In this document: in pieces, positions 6,734 through 63,021 of the stretch
Layout: each line of letters opens with the position of its first letter
Position numbering within the stretch: position 1 is the stretch's first letter
Source: Hymenobacter cheonanensis
Lineage (GTDB): Bacteria; Bacteroidota; Bacteroidia; Cytophagales; Hymenobacteraceae
Direction of reading: 5' to 3'
Length of the DNA: 64,000 bases
Assembly: GCF_030581075.1 (NCBI RefSeq)
Contig: NZ_JAUQSW010000008.1
Location: 1-64,000, forward strand
Position numbers and translations under genes: made by a program
Notes under the pieces: generated by a model
What the model saw: the letters and a program-made list of their open reading frames with translations, nothing else
What the model was told of the DNA's origin: nothing
The model's database searches: none

Positions 6734-7366
6734 ATGGAAAACCCTGTTATCATTCTCGGCGCGCAAGCCGTGGGCACTGCCGCGCTGGATGCTTTCTTAT
6801 CAAACGACGTGGTGGTGTACTGCCTGCTCGACGATGAGCCCAAGCTGCACAACACCGAGCTGCTCGACGTACCCGTGATGGGCAACACCGACGACGGCGA
6901 GCTGCTGAAGCTGCTGGGCAAGAAGTGCGAAGTCTTCGTGGCTACCGAAGATGCCGCCAGCCGCCGCAGCCTCACCAAGATGCTGCGCGAGGAGTACGAA
7001 GTGGTGCCCGTCAACAGCATTCACCAGCGCGCCAGCGTGTCGCCGCACGCCGAGCTGGGGCACGGCAACTACGTGGGCCCCAATGTCGTGGTGGCTGCTA
7101 ATGCTAAGGTTGGCGAGGGGGTTTTGATTGGCCCCAATGCCGTGGTGGAAGGCCAGGCTACCGTGGGCGACTACGCCCAACTGGGCAGCGGCGCCCAGGT
7201 AGGCGTGGGGGCTAGCGTGGGCGCTAATGCCTTTGTGGGCGCGGGCGCCGTGCTGGTAGCCGGTGTGAAAGTAGGCGACAAGGCCCGCGTAGGCGCCGGC
7301 TCGGTGGTGGTGGCCGATGTGCCGGCCGGCCAAACGGTATTCGGCAACCCGGCGGCTAAGGTTTAA
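6734..7366 (+). CDS. NeuD-type sugar O-acyltransferase
   Basis: 210 aa. Residues 1-90 form a Rossmann-like PglD/NeuD N-terminal domain (start MENPVIILGAQAVG). From about residue 95 there are left-handed beta-helix hexapeptide repeats (for example VGPNVVVAANAKVGEGVLIG), ending in the family's 'GNPAAKV' tail. Such enzymes acetylate or otherwise acylate amino sugars of surface polysaccharide; the actual substrate cannot be read from the sequence. It stands alone, with its own promoter box and an inverted repeat behind it. Confidence 0.85.
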   Translation: MENPVIILGAQAVGTAALDAFLSNDVVVYCLLDDEPKLHNTELLDVPVMGNTDDGELLKLLGKKCEVFVATEDAASRRSLTKMLREEYEVVPVNSIHQRASVSPHAELGHGNYVGPNVVVAANAKVGEGVLIGPNAVVEGQATVGDYAQLGSGAQVGVGASVGANAFVGAGAVLVAGVKVGDKARVGAGSVVVADVPAGQTVFGNPAAKV

Positions 7367-7471
7367 ATTAGAAATTGAAAATTATGAATTAAAAATAGCT
7401 GTTTGCCACATAAAAAGTGAGTGGCTCAGGCCTCAATTCATAATTTCTAATTCATAATTTTTAATTGAAAA
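7366..7471. repeat. AT-rich inverted repeat filling the gap
   Basis: Imperfect inverted repeat built from 'attatgaatt' and 'aattcataat' words. It runs from the stop of the acyltransferase to the base before the trhO ATG. The same family recurs at 47408-47516. Confidence 0.7.
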
Positions 7472-18347: not shown

Positions 18348-19829
18348 TTATATCACCGTGTTCGGGTCGAACTGCTCTAGGTAATCGGCTACCTTGCGCA
18401 CGAACATGCCGCCTAGCGAGCCATCGACCACGCGGTGGTCGTAGCTGTGGCTGAGGAACATAAAGTGGCGCACGCCGATGAGGTCGCCCTGGGGCGTCTC
18501 AATCACGGCGGGCTTCTTCTTGATGGCACCCACGGCCATGATAGCCACCTGCGGCTGCATGATGATGGGCGTGCCCATGACGTTGCCAAACGAGCCCACG
18601 TTGCTGAGCGTGTAGGTGCCGCCTTCGAGGTCGGCGGGCGTGAGCTTGTTGATGCGGGCGCGGGCGGCCAGGTCGTTCACCTTCTTGGTGAGGCCGTTGA
18701 GGTTGAGCTGGTCGGCGTTGTGAATGACCGGCACGATGAGGTTGCCGCTGGGCAGCGCCACCGCCACACCCACGTTGATGTCGCGCTTCTTGATGATGTA
18801 GTCGCCATCAATCGACACGTTTATCAGCGGGTAATCCTGGATGGCGCGGGCCACGGCCCACACAAAAAGCGGCGTGAAGGTGAGGTTCTCGCCGGTGCGC
18901 TTCTTGTAGGCATCCTTGTGCTTGTTGCGCCAGTGCACCAGTTCGGTCACGTCGGCCTCCACGAAGCTCGTGACGTGCGGCGAAATGCGCTTCGAGTCCA
19001 CCATGCGCTGGGCAATCATCTTGCGCATCCGGTCCATCTCAATCAGCTCCTGGCCGCCCGATACCGAGGGCGCGGGCTTGCTGGCGGGGGCCGCCTGGCC
19101 ATTGGCACCGGGGGCGGGGCTAGCCTTGGGCGCGGGCGCGGCGGGCTTGGCTTCGGGGGCCGGCTTCGTTTCGGGGACAGGCGCGGGCTTGGGGGCGGGC
19201 GCAGCTGGCTGGGGCGCCGGGGCGGCAGGGGCCGCCGCGGTTGGCTGCAGCGAGGGCTTGCCGGCGGCTACGTGGTCGAGAATGTCCTTTTTGGTTACGC
19301 GGCCTTCCTGGCCGGTGCCGGGCAGGCGCTCCAGCTCGCTCATGCTGATGCCTTCCTCGCGGGCAATGCTGAGCACCAGCGGCGAGTAGAAGCGGCCTTC
19401 CTGTACGGGCAGGCCGGCGCTGGCCGGCGCCGGGGCCGATACCGGGTTGTTGGGGCCGGGCAGGTAGGGCACGCCTTCGTCGCCGGCCGGGGCCTCGTGC
19501 AGCGGGCGCACATCTTCTTGCACGGGCGGGTTGGCGCTGGCTTCTTCGAGGTCGTCGGTGTTCTCGCTGGGGGCCGGGGCAGTGGCGGCATCGGTTTCGA
19601 TGCGGGCGATGGGCGCGCCCACGGCCACCACCTGGCCTTCCTGCACCAGAATTTCGGCCAGCGTGCCGGCGTAGAGGGCGGGTACTTCGGTATCTACCTT
19701 ATCGGTCGCTACTTCCAGCACCGACTCATCTTGCTCAATGGCGTCGCCAACTTGCTTGAGCCATTTCAGCACGGTGCCTTCCATGATGGATTCGCCCATC
19801 TTGGGCATCGTCATTTCCACTCGGGCCAT
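18348..19829 (-). CDS. 2-oxoacid dehydrogenase E2 (dihydrolipoamide acyltransferase)
   Basis: 493 aa from the ATG at 19829 (MARVEMTMPKMGESIMEG). Core of a pyruvate-, branched-chain- or 2-oxoglutarate-dehydrogenase type complex. Domains: lipoyl domain with the lipoylated Lys in 'EVATDKVDTEV' (residues 1-75), acidic linker, E1/E3-binding domain (about 140-180, 'REEGISMSELERLPGTG'), Pro/Ala linker, and the catalytic domain ending with 'SYDHRVVDGSLGG' (active His and Asp). One lipoyl domain. No E1 or E3 is adjacent, so the substrate is unassigned; branched-chain type is common for stand-alone Bacteroidota copies. Confidence 0.92.
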   Translation of the reverse strand: MARVEMTMPKMGESIMEGTVLKWLKQVGDAIEQDESVLEVATDKVDTEVPALYAGTLAEILVQEGQVVAVGAPIARIETDAATAPAPSENTDDLEEASANPPVQEDVRPLHEAPAGDEGVPYLPGPNNPVSAPAPASAGLPVQEGRFYSPLVLSIAREEGISMSELERLPGTGQEGRVTKKDILDHVAAGKPSLQPTAAAPAAPAPQPAAPAPKPAPVPETKPAPEAKPAAPAPKASPAPGANGQAAPASKPAPSVSGGQELIEMDRMRKMIAQRMVDSKRISPHVTSFVEADVTELVHWRNKHKDAYKKRTGENLTFTPLFVWAVARAIQDYPLINVSIDGDYIIKKRDINVGVAVALPSGNLIVPVIHNADQLNLNGLTKKVNDLAARARINKLTPADLEGGTYTLSNVGSFGNVMGTPIIMQPQVAIMAVGAIKKKPAVIETPQGDLIGVRHFMFLSHSYDHRVVDGSLGGMFVRKVADYLEQFDPNTVI

Positions 19830-19901: not shown

Positions 19902-19946
19902 AGCCAAACGCCCCCGCACCGGCAGGCCGGGCGGGGGCGTTTGGCT
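19902..19946. terminator. 16-bp hairpin between membrane protein and E2
   Basis: Perfect arms 19902-19917 and 19931-19946 (AGCCAAACGCCCCCGC and complement). It begins at the stop codon of the upstream minus-strand gene and ends just before the E2 promoter box. Confidence 0.8.
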
Positions 19947-20685
19947 AAGGTGGCGAAACTGATTTATTTGTTGCCTTGCGGTTTGGGCTTGTCACCTGTT
20001 TTGTTTTTATGGCCGGATTCGGTGTCATCTGAACTAGAGAGTCCTTCCCCAAGACGGACGATGCGGCTACGCTCAACGATGGGGAGCTGATAATTTTTGC
20101 GCTGCGTAGCGGCTTTTCTTTCAAGTACTGCTGGCATGTTACGGCAAGTTGTTGAGGTGGAGAATCAGGAGGAGGGAAAACGAATTTAAGCAGTAGACAG
20201 CTAACCAACGTCCAGGCAACTGTAATGCCGGACCATAGAACGGCCCGATTGTAAGCAGTATGGGAGTTGGTAAGCTCTTGGCCATTTATAGTAATCGCCG
20301 CCTGGTTGGCAGCAATTTCGAGGAGTAGAACATCTTCGTAGCTTTTACGGATAACCTCGTTAAATTCAGCAGGGTCTAATCCGCTAGCTGCCTCGCGTTC
20401 TAACATTACGCTGAAGAATAACCAAAAGGTGTAGGCCGCCGAGCCTAGTAGCGGCAGCAGCACCAACAACCTCCACCAGCTGAAGGGCAAAGCTTGGCTG
20501 AAAAAAAACGTTAGCAAGGCCGTAAGCAGCGTTACAAACATTCCAGCATTTTGCCGGCGATGCCTAATTATTTCATCCTGTTGTTGCAGGTAATTTTTAG
20601 ACTTCTCAGCTACAAATTCAAGTTGCTGGCAGCCTAGTGATACTGTGACTTCTTCGGGGAGAGGTAGCTCTGCGGGTGGTTCCAT
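19945..20685 (-). CDS. Three-helix membrane protein, SLATT/Pycsar-TM-like layout
   Basis: 246 aa, family not firmly recognised. Layout: amphipathic helix (about 25-46, KNYLQQQDEIIRHRRQNA), two close membrane spans (47-65 and 70-92), a charged cytoplasmic helix (93-140), a third span (147-168), then a Pro/Ser/Lys-rich tail. This helix-TM-TM-helix-TM order resembles membrane effectors of SLATT or Pycsar-TM type, but no nucleotide cyclase or other defence partner is next to it, so that is inference. Composition is slightly more AT-rich than its neighbours. Confidence 0.65.
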   Translation of the reverse strand: MEPPAELPLPEEVTVSLGCQQLEFVAEKSKNYLQQQDEIIRHRRQNAGMFVTLLTALLTFFFSQALPFSWWRLLVLLPLLGSAAYTFWLFFSVMLEREAASGLDPAEFNEVIRKSYEDVLLLEIAANQAAITINGQELTNSHTAYNRAVLWSGITVAWTLVSCLLLKFVFPPPDSPPQQLAVTCQQYLKEKPLRSAKIISSPSLSVAASSVLGKDSLVQMTPNPAIKTKQVTSPNRKATNKSVSPP

Positions 20686-20704
20686 ACGCGTCGATTTGAC
20701 TAAA

Positions 20705-21304
20705 CTACCCCAGTACCACCTCCACCACGTCCGAGCGCTCGCCCACAGGCTTGTCGTCCTTCATCAGGTGCACGCAGTACTCGTAGCGGCCGTGCAGGCC
20801 GGTTTCGGTGTCGATGTAGGGCGAGCGGGTGTCGAAGGCTAGTGGGCGGCCCCAGTCGGCAGAGCCGGCCGGGCGGCGGAAAACCTGCACGCCATCCTGG
20901 CCCAGCTTGCTCCAGTCGAGGCGCAGGCCCTCGGCCGAGGGACGCTGCTGGAGAGAAGGCTTGAGGCTGACGCTCTGGGCCGAGGCGGGGCTGCTGAGCC
21001 ATTGCATATCCTGGCCTATGGCTGCGGAGTAGGCGGGGTGGGTTTTGGCGCGGGCAATGGCGGCGCGGGTGGCAGTGGTGTAGGCATCGATGGCCGCATC
21101 GCGGGCCACTACGGCGGCGCGGGCTTGGCTCATAGCGGCCTCAGCTGCCCCGATGCTGGCGAGCACAGCTTGGTCAGCGGCGTTGTGCTGGGTGGTTTCG
21201 GCTTCCGAGTAGCCGAGGGTGGGGGCGTAGCCAGCCCGTTTGGTGGTTTGAAGGCGCACCCACTGGGCAAAGTCGCCCAAGGCCTGCGGAATAAAATCGC
21301 TCAC
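20705..21304 (-). CDS. Hypothetical protein with helical N-part and Fn3-like C-part
   Basis: 199 aa from a GTG start. Residues about 40-95 are Ala-rich and helical (AAEAAMSQARAAVVARDAAI). The C-terminal 70 residues look like one beta-sandwich: 'LRLDWSKLGQDGVQVFRRP', 'GLHGRYEYCVHLMKDDKPVG', resembling fibronectin type III. No signal peptide or membrane helix. Function unknown. It starts at the edge of a gap containing a 21-nt repeat array and may form a unit with the membrane protein downstream (19-bp spacing). Confidence 0.65.
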   Translation of the reverse strand: MSDFIPQALGDFAQWVRLQTTKRAGYAPTLGYSEAETTQHNAADQAVLASIGAAEAAMSQARAAVVARDAAIDAYTTATRAAIARAKTHPAYSAAIGQDMQWLSSPASAQSVSLKPSLQQRPSAEGLRLDWSKLGQDGVQVFRRPAGSADWGRPLAFDTRSPYIDTETGLHGRYEYCVHLMKDDKPVGERSDVVEVVLG

Positions 21305-21367
21305 GACAAAAAAGAAAAGTAAAAAGGCAAAGCAATACTACGTCCCAATTCTTCTATTTTAAAGCAC

Positions 21368-21577
21368 GCGGGTATTTAGGTAGCCTAGCCGGGGGGCCAG
21401 GCCGGTGGGCCGGGGTGCTGGGCGGGCTAGCCGGGAAGTAAGGCCTGCGTTCTGGGGAGTTTTGCGGGAGCGCCAGGGGGCGGCCCCGGCCTACCGGGAA
21501 GTTTTGCGGGAAAGTCGGGAAACCGAGCCGGGCTGCCGGGGCCGCTGCCCGGGGCGCCGGCACGGAGGCCAGGGCCG
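21368..21577. repeat. Array of ten degenerate 21-nt units
   Basis: Phased units start at 21368, 21389, 21410, 21431, 21452, 21473, 21494, 21515, 21536 and 21557. Most begin CCGGG or a close variant; the clearest unit reads CCGGGAAGTTTTGCGGGAA plus two bases. It lies inside the 469-base gap between divergent genes (21305-21773), which otherwise shows no convincing gene. Confidence 0.85.
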
Positions 21578-21686
21578 GTTTCAAGCGGTACAATCGGGGC
21601 GTTGGTCGGGGTTTGGAGGTAAAAAGGGGCCAGTGGCATCGCCAGGCCGTTTTTCGGCCACTCGTTTGCAAAGGGATAGTCAACCA

Positions 21687-21729
21687 GCCGCCGGCGCCCA
21701 GGCCGCCGGCGCCCAGGCCGCCGGCGCGG
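21687..21729. repeat. Tandem 15-mer, almost three copies
   Basis: GCCGCCGGCGCCCAG at 21687 and 21702, with a third partial copy at 21717. Forty-five bases before the ATG at 21774, so in the probable leader or promoter of that gene. Confidence 0.85.
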
Positions 21730-21773: not shown

Positions 21774-22163
21774 ATGAAATCTTTCCTGTTTGCCGCCCTC
21801 GCTACCGCTAGCCTGCTCGCCAGCCCCAGCGCTTTCGCCGCCGCTCCTCTCGACAGCCACGACCGCGATGGCCGCTACGAGCAGCAGCGCCCCGGCGACC
21901 GCGACTTCAACTACGGCTACGACCGCAACCACCGCGTGAGCCGCGAAGAAATAGCCCGCTACCAGGCTCAGCACCGCAACGACAACCGCGGCCGCGACAA
22001 CGACCACTTCGACCGCAACCAGAACTACGGCTTCGACCGCGACCACCGCGTGAGCCCAAGCGAGCGCCGCGACTGGGAGCGTGGCCACAACTACGGCTAC
22101 GCCCAAAACCACCGCGTAACGCCCCAGGAGCGTGCCCGCTGGGAAGCCCAGTACCGCCGCTAA
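21774..22163 (+). CDS. Secreted repeat protein with NYGY..NHRV motifs
   Basis: 129 aa. Signal peptide 1-23 (MKSFLFAALATASLLASPSA). The mature protein has three similar modules, 'NYGYDRNHRVSREE', 'NYGFDRDHRVSPSERRDWE' and 'NYGYAQNHRVTPQERARWE', spaced about 30-40 residues and rich in Asp, Arg, His and Tyr. I do not recognise the family; the repeats suggest a structural or ligand-binding periplasmic protein. The start at 21774 is chosen because the upstream extension runs through GC-rich repeats. Followed by another small secreted protein on the same strand. Confidence 0.75.
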   Translation: MKSFLFAALATASLLASPSAFAAAPLDSHDRDGRYEQQRPGDRDFNYGYDRNHRVSREEIARYQAQHRNDNRGRDNDHFDRNQNYGFDRDHRVSPSERRDWERGHNYGYAQNHRVTPQERARWEAQYRR

Positions 22164-47407: not shown

Positions 47408-47516
47408 TTTTTAGAATTATGAGCTATGAATTACGATTTGTGAATTATGTGATAATGAGCACGATAGCCGCAGGTATTGGGCCGGCTCATAATTCATAAT
47501 TTATAATTCATAATTA
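47408..47516. repeat. AT-rich inverted repeat filling the gap
   Basis: Built from 'aattatga' and 'tcataatt' words; same family as 7366-7471. It fits almost exactly between the lpxC/fabZ stop and the lpxA start. Confidence 0.75.
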
Positions 47517-48919: not shown

Positions 48920-49040
48920 GGTCGTTTTTCGTTTTTCGTTTTTCGTTTTTCGCCTCTCGTTGGTACTGAATCAGCCACTTATAAAAGCGTATTTCAGGCA
49001 ACGAAAAACGAAAAACAAGCAGCGAAAAACGAACCGGCTA
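48920..49040. repeat. 'GTTTTTC' repeat with inverted arms
   Basis: Four to five tandem GTTTTTC-type units (48923-48952), then CGAAAAACGAAAAAC and GCGAAAAACGAACCGGCTAC on the other arm. Between lpxD and lpxC/fabZ; its right end matches the repeat at 32697-32795. Confidence 0.8.
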
Positions 49041-62702: not shown

Positions 62703-62912
62703 CGCCAGCTGGCTAAAACTTGGACGGAACTACGTAAAACCTGGATTCGGAGCAGCGCGGCAACAGTGCGGTAGTTTGAGCAAACAGTGCGCAGGACCCG
62801 GGCGAAGGTGCGGAAGACCGAGGCTATAGCGCAGAAGACCGGGACGCATGTGCGGCTTCCCGGGGTGGCACCCGGGCCGCCCGCAGCGTATGCCCGGGGC
62901 CCCGGGGCGGCA
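62703..62912. repeat. Array of ten degenerate 21-nt units
   Basis: Units start at 62703, 62724, 62745, 62766, 62787, 62808, 62829, 62850, 62871 and 62892. Most conserved form GTGCGGAAGACCGGG plus six. It occupies most of the 366-base gap between divergent genes (62656-63021), where I see no gene. Confidence 0.85.
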
Positions 62913-63021
62913 GGTAGGCGCGGCCGCAACGGGCAGAAACCAGACCCCGAAAAAATCAAAACCCCGCGCCAGGCGGTTTATCAGCCACCTTTCCCTTTTC
63001 ACCCCCAACTTTTCCACGCAT

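Follow-up and report, generated by a model that had tools for sequence, protein, structure and literature searches.

Phased 21-nt repeat arrays beside three uncharacterised protein families of Bacteroidota, tentatively read as helically phased DNA sites

The 64-kb stretch of DNA analysed here (the window) contains, in the gap between two genes, a row of degenerate 21-nt repeats, and the question raised by this locus is what such a row might be for. An earlier note on the same DNA had claimed ten phased units in a divergent gap, pointed out that 21 nt equals two turns of B-DNA or seven codons, doubted that the row is translated, and left helically phased protein sites, a structured RNA and a promoter spacer as options.

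The array in the window and its surroundings

The excess of lag-21 matches over shuffled sequence, a check set beforehand, was borne out. Between positions 21368 and 21577 there are 97 matches in 189 comparisons at lag 21 (shuffle mean 61.7, z 5.9), 97 at lag 42 (mean 54.9, z 7.5) and 75 at lag 63 (mean 48.0, z 5.1), values that were reached by none of 2000 dinucleotide shuffles; nor was the lag-21 fraction reached by any of 6379 segments of 210 nt taken in steps of 10 over the whole 64 kb. Additional peaks at lags 13, 12 and 8 (z 5.4, 3.5 and 2.4) are attributable to a second CGGG inside the unit, which they fit. About eight of the ten units claimed are convincing, the first and the last being weak, and while a CCGGG-like head is present in most units, the TGCGGGAA tail said to go with it is clear only at 21452 and 21494. 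The unit consensus is dyad-symmetric relative to column permutation (p 0.003). TRF, run with a minimum score of 30, did not report the array as period 21, and Rfam gave no match in the window.

When the DNA of the whole array was searched against its own genome (G000), only the array itself and one match outside it were returned, and the better matches in the genus proved to be the upstream region of the 129-aa gene rather than an array. The unit was also considered as a dispersed motif, and this was rejected: CGGGAAGTTTTGCGGGA with one mismatch occurs in 11 of 120 genus genomes, at one place each, and a backwards control gives more. No arrays are present around the ten non-self matches to CGGGAAGTTTTGCGGGA in the genus genomes. 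Between the array and the plus-strand gene TRF reports a 15-nt repeat of 2.7 copies (21687-21727); its genus matches, as far as they were read, are mostly Ala-rich coding DNA, and it was discarded as giving chance matches.

Table 1. Positions in the window of the array, its neighbours and a second array
Feature	Position	Strand	Basis or remark
odhB-like gene	18348-19829	-	beyond the 246-aa gene
246-aa gene after family i, weakly 8xMP / PycTM-like membrane protein	19945-20685	-	weak profile matches
Segment of 246-aa gene, family i gene and array	19951-21577		absent from the same place in L003 and L007 (BLAST against the window)
Family i gene, 199 aa, uncharacterised	20705-21304	-	homologues in genus, family, order and phylum; array lies 5' of the gene
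Putative promoter zone, array to gene	21305-21367	-	alignment of six upstream regions; promoter function inferred
Core of 21-nt phased array, about 8 units	21392-21558		autocorrelation, array bounds, dyad consensus
129-aa gene	21774-22163	+	right side of the divergent gap
Second 21-nt phased array	62740-62930		lag-21 score 0.56; another divergent gap

The gap is divergent, as the earlier note had it, with a 199-aa gene and a 129-aa gene on its two sides (Table 1). Behind the 199-aa gene stands a 246-aa gene with a Pfam 8xMP match at E 0.0013, which is below the cut-off, and a PADLOC PycTM match at E 0.006, and beyond it a gene that we take, from its sequence, to be odhB-like. The 129-aa protein is secreted-looking, with repeated YGYDRNHRVS-like motifs, and the region upstream of its gene (approximately 21573-21712) is conserved in several relatives.

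In two loci of related genomes, L003 and L007, the odhB-like gene directly adjoins the 129-aa gene, without the 246-aa gene, the 199-aa gene or the array; homology to the window ends at 19926 and restarts at 21573 in the former, and ends at 19950 and restarts at 21581 in the latter. At L064 to L067 the order of array, 199-aa homologue, further sequence and odhB-like gene is kept, from which it is reasonable to infer that the unit of array and gene is old at this place and has probably been lost in some lineages. G083 retains 40 residues from the 3' end of the family i gene as a trace, with no array seen in the surrounding 8 kb, and G058 looks the same by eye. From species to species, different genes fill the space from family i to the odhB-like gene (L064 to L067 and the 246-aa gene of the window), which gives this place the look of a variable slot, and other loci have different genes in place of the 246-aa gene.

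Linkage to three protein families

Homologues of the 199-aa protein (family i), sought in the genus, family, order and phylum, carry a 21-nt array just upstream, with a unit that is peculiar to each locus. Two further families, of 160 aa (family ii) and 228 aa (family iii), were met beside the arrays of gaps, and G000 has a family ii gene of its own (L301, 1501-1986) with a long array after the stop codon. Genes were called with a home-made codon-usage caller, and for each flank the best lag among 12 to 40 was taken at a score of at least 0.46, the opposite flank and the other lags serving as control. Upstream of family i genes the best lag was 21 in 26 of 36 flanks and 22 in one (L046), with no other lag appearing, as compared with lag 21 in 2 of 38 downstream flanks and other lags in three. 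For family ii it is the downstream flank that carries the array (lag 21 in 41 of 57, other lags in three, one of them 22), the upstream flank giving lag 21 in 1 of 57 and other lags in eight; for family iii it is again the upstream flank (lag 21 in 13 of 30, other lags in five, against 0 of 30 and two downstream). The arrays are a widespread class found beside certain small uncharacterised proteins in many Bacteroidota, on a side that is set by the family.

These counts are not independent, since the loci include orthologues and paralogues. From family i, 6 of 45 loci without a tblastn match were dropped (L280, L281, L282, L283, L288 and L296), and four of these, L280, L281, L288 and L296, score 0.52 to 0.87 at lag 21 on the upstream side; a further locus was merged with a near-identical one, and two lacked usable sequence upstream. 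Some matches of the order search were left out (e.g. three of G251 and two of G299), as were those covering only some 70 C-terminal residues, and L101, whose array lies more than 400 nt upstream, was scored as a miss. For family ii, 1 of 60 loci was without a match and one was merged, and for families ii and iii the matches taken in were 30 of 43, 30 of 45 and 30 of 44. Members of family i without an array do exist, for example L276 and L285 (both of G771). The GC content of array loci ranges from 0.31 to 0.67 (31 to 67%), and the period is still 21; a period of 22 is found in two loci, L046 and L311.

The proteins themselves offer few clues. No match above cut-off in Pfam or NCBIfam, and no trustworthy PADLOC match, was obtained for the members of families i-iii that were scanned, and a known DNA-binding domain was found in none of the three with Pfam and NCBIfam. 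A common ancestor of the three families was considered and rejected on HH-align probabilities below 1%. The AF2 model of family i predicts a helical hairpin and an Fn3-like beta domain (sandwich) at pLDDT 73 and pTM 0.39; its Fn3-like structural matches are weak (none better than E>0.1), and neither a classical DNA-binding fold nor winged-helix Rep domains were met in it. The C-terminal tail of family ii is basic, K+R making up 24% of its final 20 residues and 11% of the whole protein (13 sequences). A plasmid or viral home was rejected for family i, since none of 72,556 plasmid records gave a tblastn match to a protein of this family and viral contigs gave no match either.

Where an array sits with respect to transcription signals bears upon several of the options. 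Among six aligned family i orthologues, TCAG[CT]TACTATTAC is common to L065, L066 and L067, where it lies after the array and ahead of the start codon; in L063, L064 and the window it is present in weaker form, TAGTATTGCTTTG occupying in the window the place of the TACTATTAC-like letters of the orthologues. If this element is a promoter, which we infer from the alignment only, the family i array would lie upstream of it and hence outside the transcript of its own gene. The family ii array, on the other hand, comes after its gene, which excludes a plain promoter role for all arrays, and the promoter spacer that had been offered as an option fails as a general reading. Of 20 family ii loci scanned, 10 have a terminator-like hairpin before the array or at its start; this count has no shuffled control, and the scan was confined to loci whose array begins more than 25 nt after the stop codon (10 further loci were too close). 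In L223 and L224, downstream of the family ii gene, the letters of the terminator-like hairpin resemble the array unit, and the array there may have grown from the hairpin or may include it.

A period of seven codons also invites the reading that the arrays code for seven-residue (heptad) peptide repeats, and many are indeed open in some frame (a mean of 2.98 open frames of six per array, as against 2.51 after column permutation). We nonetheless find this scarcely credible. In 6 of 60 arrays every one of the six frames is closed, which excludes coding as the general reason and upholds the doubt about translation already expressed; L046 and L311 have the period of 22; and in family i the promoter-like element stands between array and start codon.

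Unit anatomy, with repeat RNA and phased DNA sites as possible readings

In a sample of 60 arrays of at least five units, the unit consensus is dyad-symmetric in 35 (p<=0.05 against column permutation), with 18 of 20 in family ii, 12 of 16 in family i, 1 of 11 in family iii and 4 of 13 among the others. Most of the family iii arrays printed have instead an asymmetric core like GATATCCTACT or GAAATCCTACT together with a variable part, L274 and L275 being different. Rows have a median of about 7 units, and the units inside one array are on average some 61% identical. Successive units are 21 nt apart in 359 of 363 cases, but this is weak support, as lag 21 was the criterion by which arrays were picked, and with shuffled letters 220 of 234 steps are still 21. 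What we do observe across loci is that the sequence turns over while the period remains constant, a combination that is seldom met and that points directly to selection on geometry.

One possibility to be weighed is that the array works as a transcribed repeat RNA bound by the neighbouring protein, in the manner of a type III toxin-antitoxin system. We consider this unlikely, though not to be dismissed. Its design is the same, as far as the part of the source available to us goes, with diverged repeats, a constant unit length and related proteins having related repeats (PMC5086642), and ToxIN, CptIN and TenpIN also resemble the arrays in that a small protein gene adjoins repeats which are peculiar to the locus and constant in length (PMC5086642, likewise seen in part). 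Moreover, folding on both strands is much stronger in family i and ii arrays than in their dinucleotide shuffles (mean z about -5.4 for 16 family i arrays, and -7.2 to -7.7 for 20 of family ii). However, there is no clear difference between the strands in folding, and good folding on both strands alike is what any dyad array must display; no such folding is seen in family iii (mean z -0.15 and 0.65, 11 arrays), and the array of the window folds no better than shuffles (z -1.2 and +0.85). The structured RNA left as an option in the earlier note for the window array is weakened by this last result and by the want of compensation within units, yet RNA repeats remain possible.

The arms of units pair equally well within and between units (difference 0.003, Wilcoxon p 0.99) and independently of the unit offset, as expected for half-sites that are read singly in DNA. 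The changes between units are transition-rich and not complementary, and within the units of the dyad arrays no compensatory change of the kind that simple hairpins would call for was found. G-T and A-C mispairs are equally frequent within and between units, so that no preference for G-U over A-C exists beyond the between-unit level. A hairpin RNA was rejected on these grounds, for the consensus units are dyads, yet there is no compensation. The arrays depart from type III systems in other respects as well, the unit being 21 nt rather than the 34-36 nt of the three ToxIN examples cited, and no ToxN-like endoribonuclease being matched by families i-iii in Pfam or NCBIfam. As to the type III order of repeats, terminator and toxin gene, families i and iii have the array upstream of the gene, and family ii has it downstream, behind or at the terminator-like hairpin in the ten loci mentioned above.

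The reading that we prefer, while holding it at somewhat under even confidence, is that an array is a cis-acting set of helically phased DNA sites for an oligomerising factor, most likely the product of the neighbouring gene. It rests chiefly on the constant step of two B-DNA turns, which is kept regardless of sequence and GC content, and to this extent the option of helically phased protein sites raised at the outset is favoured by the comparative evidence, albeit without proof. Also in its favour are the tie to a gene on a family-specific side, the dyad units, the promoter-like element that separates array and gene in family i, the terminator-like hairpins of family ii, the basic tail of the family ii proteins and the same-unit orphan arrays of G000 and G113. 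In a periodic 21-bp dyad, a symmetry axis recurs every 10.5 bp, giving one half-site per helical turn. Sites placed every two helix turns would all face one way, so that bound proteins could touch each other, and in a dyad unit such as that of the window the half-sites would alternate in direction at about one per turn. The binding factor would most likely be the small helical protein encoded beside the array, and in some genomes its action may extend in trans to arrays that lie in further gaps; the outcome of binding could be autoregulation or a local organisation of the DNA. Protein binding, the identity of the binder, its oligomerisation and its effect are each inferred. Several findings count against such DNA sites, in that a unit identity of some 61% is loose for specific sites, the arrays of family iii are not dyads, the families have no known DNA-binding domain and there are no binding data. 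The similarity of arrays follows that of the adjoining proteins (Mantel r 0.33, 0.40 and 0.77), which is what co-evolution would give but is expected from common descent alone.

A precedent for phased DNA sites exists in iterons, tandem units of 17-22 bp that are bound by Rep, whose unit sequence varies between replicons and whose cooperativity is lost when half a helical turn is added between two of them (PMC4980987, of which we have seen a part). The resemblance consists of tandem repeats of 21 (22) nt that adjoin a gene, the binding of its product being in our case an inference only. The rep gene is usually found beside its iterons. The arrays differ from them in being tied to three families without similarity to Rep, on a family-specific side that can be downstream, in often being dyads, in a period that is nearly constant over a phylum, and in the absence of a plasmid match for family i.

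With rather less confidence than we place in phased DNA sites as such, and only as a tentative proposal, we suggest that the arrays and proteins make up an undescribed two-part element of Bacteroidota, consisting of a small helical protein and a phased 21-bp array whose letters are free, with arrays of the same unit elsewhere, so that each genome has a private DNA-address code. No description of such arrays or families was found in open-access PMC full text; as preprints and most subscription papers are outside that scope, the novelty is provisional. Three uncharacterised protein families of Bacteroidota in any case gain a testable partner in the adjoining array. Should the families bind the arrays, they would provide ready-made DNA-binding pairs with locus-specific recognition, whereas action as RNA would mean a new repeat-RNA system; in both cases the intergenic arrays can now be read and can serve in the search for more such families.

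Arrays in other gaps

The gaps of four genomes that carry full-length family i were scanned, and arrays numbered 4 for G000 (463 kb, the window accounting for two), 9 for G006 (400 kb), 3 for G113 (200 kb) and 4 for G067 (200 kb), making 20 in 1,263 kb. In 20 further members of the genus that lack full-length family i, no array was scored among 180 gaps (400 kb). This contrast is weaker than it appears. Eleven of the 20 non-carriers have family ii or iii, and some match part of family i weakly; in the pooled gaps of the 20, where no array was scored, lag 21 again comes out on top (z 8.2); and with the threshold lowered, two non-carrier gaps emerge at lag 21, one of which is coding-looking. In G006 the best lag is 21 in nine gaps and any other lag from 12 to 40 in at most three; lowering the threshold to 0.42 gives 17 gaps at lag 21, of which three consist of 7-nt repeats or are probably coding, with a single gap at lag 20 besides. 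Among the neighbours of 20 arrays beyond the first of the window, 5 adjoin a family ii or iii gene and 15 are without any family i-iii gene, which speaks against the DNA-site reading. The second array of the window (Table 1) has a different unit and no adjoining family i-iii gene, and is flanked by what look by eye like a 160-aa lipoprotein gene and an aldo/keto-reductase gene.

Gaps with arrays and no family gene are what would be expected if the arrays had a functionless mutational origin, slippage or template switching with a 21-nt step amplifying local sequence (e.g. terminator hairpins) and the products persisting in gaps. We judge such an origin unlikely though still possible, and several points are in its favour. 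Near units are slightly more alike than distant ones (identity of 0.62-0.64 one or two units apart and 0.575 at eight apart), from which it appears that local duplication continues; the hairpin letters at L223 and L224 resemble the unit; and the peak at lag 21 in the pooled gaps of non-carriers is likewise in keeping with it. Slippage, however, leaves unexplained the tie to three families on a family-specific side, the dominance of lag 21 over the remainder of the range in gaps (as in G006) and the keeping of phase at about 60% unit identity.

In two genomes we observed orphan arrays that have the unit of a family-linked array. Over all arrays compared, the mean similarity is the same within genomes (0.311) and between them (0.310), but the top two of 334 pairs each join an orphan and a family-linked array of one genome with a common unit, L118 (315-480) with L301 in G000, and L181 (at 18189) with L024 in G113. 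Their PSSM scores are 43.9 and 41.6 bits, whereas no other place in the scanned samples exceeds 17.6 and 13.0, respectively, and a BLAST search of G000 revealed a third array with the unit of L301 and L118, in a convergent gap at C16:160533. For 9 of 11 family-linked arrays scanned, no clear orphan partner was found in the same genome; their best own-genome non-self scores are 10 to 33 bits, the highest being to another family ii array of G006, while scores between genomes also reach 20 to 24 bits and once 37, between two family iii arrays. The want of a partner for these nine and the equal mean similarity weigh against the DNA-site reading.

Such pairs suggest a further explanation, in which the gene helps its array to spread to other gaps as a dispersing repeat. 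REP/BIME palindromes are associated in this way with a RAYT gene, which encodes a Y1 transposase. There is a likeness in the dyad repeats that lie in gaps, are specific to a genome and have one copy group beside the gene; the same-unit orphans of G000 and G113 and the many arrays without a family gene are likewise compatible with dispersal. We regard it as improbable all the same. No transposase, nuclease or integrase match above cut-off was found in families i-iii; the orphans have a consensus in common and are not near-identical copies; nine of the eleven arrays sampled lack a clear partner; and REP/BIME elements do not resemble the constant 21-nt phasing and the rows of several units seen here. 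Nor do the arrays have the near-identical repeats and unrelated spacers of a CRISPR array, the period being 21, the units being only loosely alike and the most regular arrays repeating the whole unit without spacers; no cas genes were noticed among the array neighbours printed, which were inspected by eye only.

Heptanucleotide direct repeats, e.g. TAACTGA, are described from intergenic regions, also of five Bacteroidetes (PMC4679880). To judge from the part of that source available to us, they consist of one fixed 7-nt word over gaps, as opposed to locus-specific 21-nt units of which many are tied to a gene family. TRF reports repeats of the heptanucleotide type, with periods of 7, 14 and 21, at 7365-7466, 47414-47515 and 48922-49033 of the window, and similar 7-nt arrays are present in G006 (L130 1-134 and L147 16114-16257). 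Units of two alternating forms, with a period of 42 nt and large dyads, were seen at L145 8864-9187, L193 555-1000 and L132 9297-9656.
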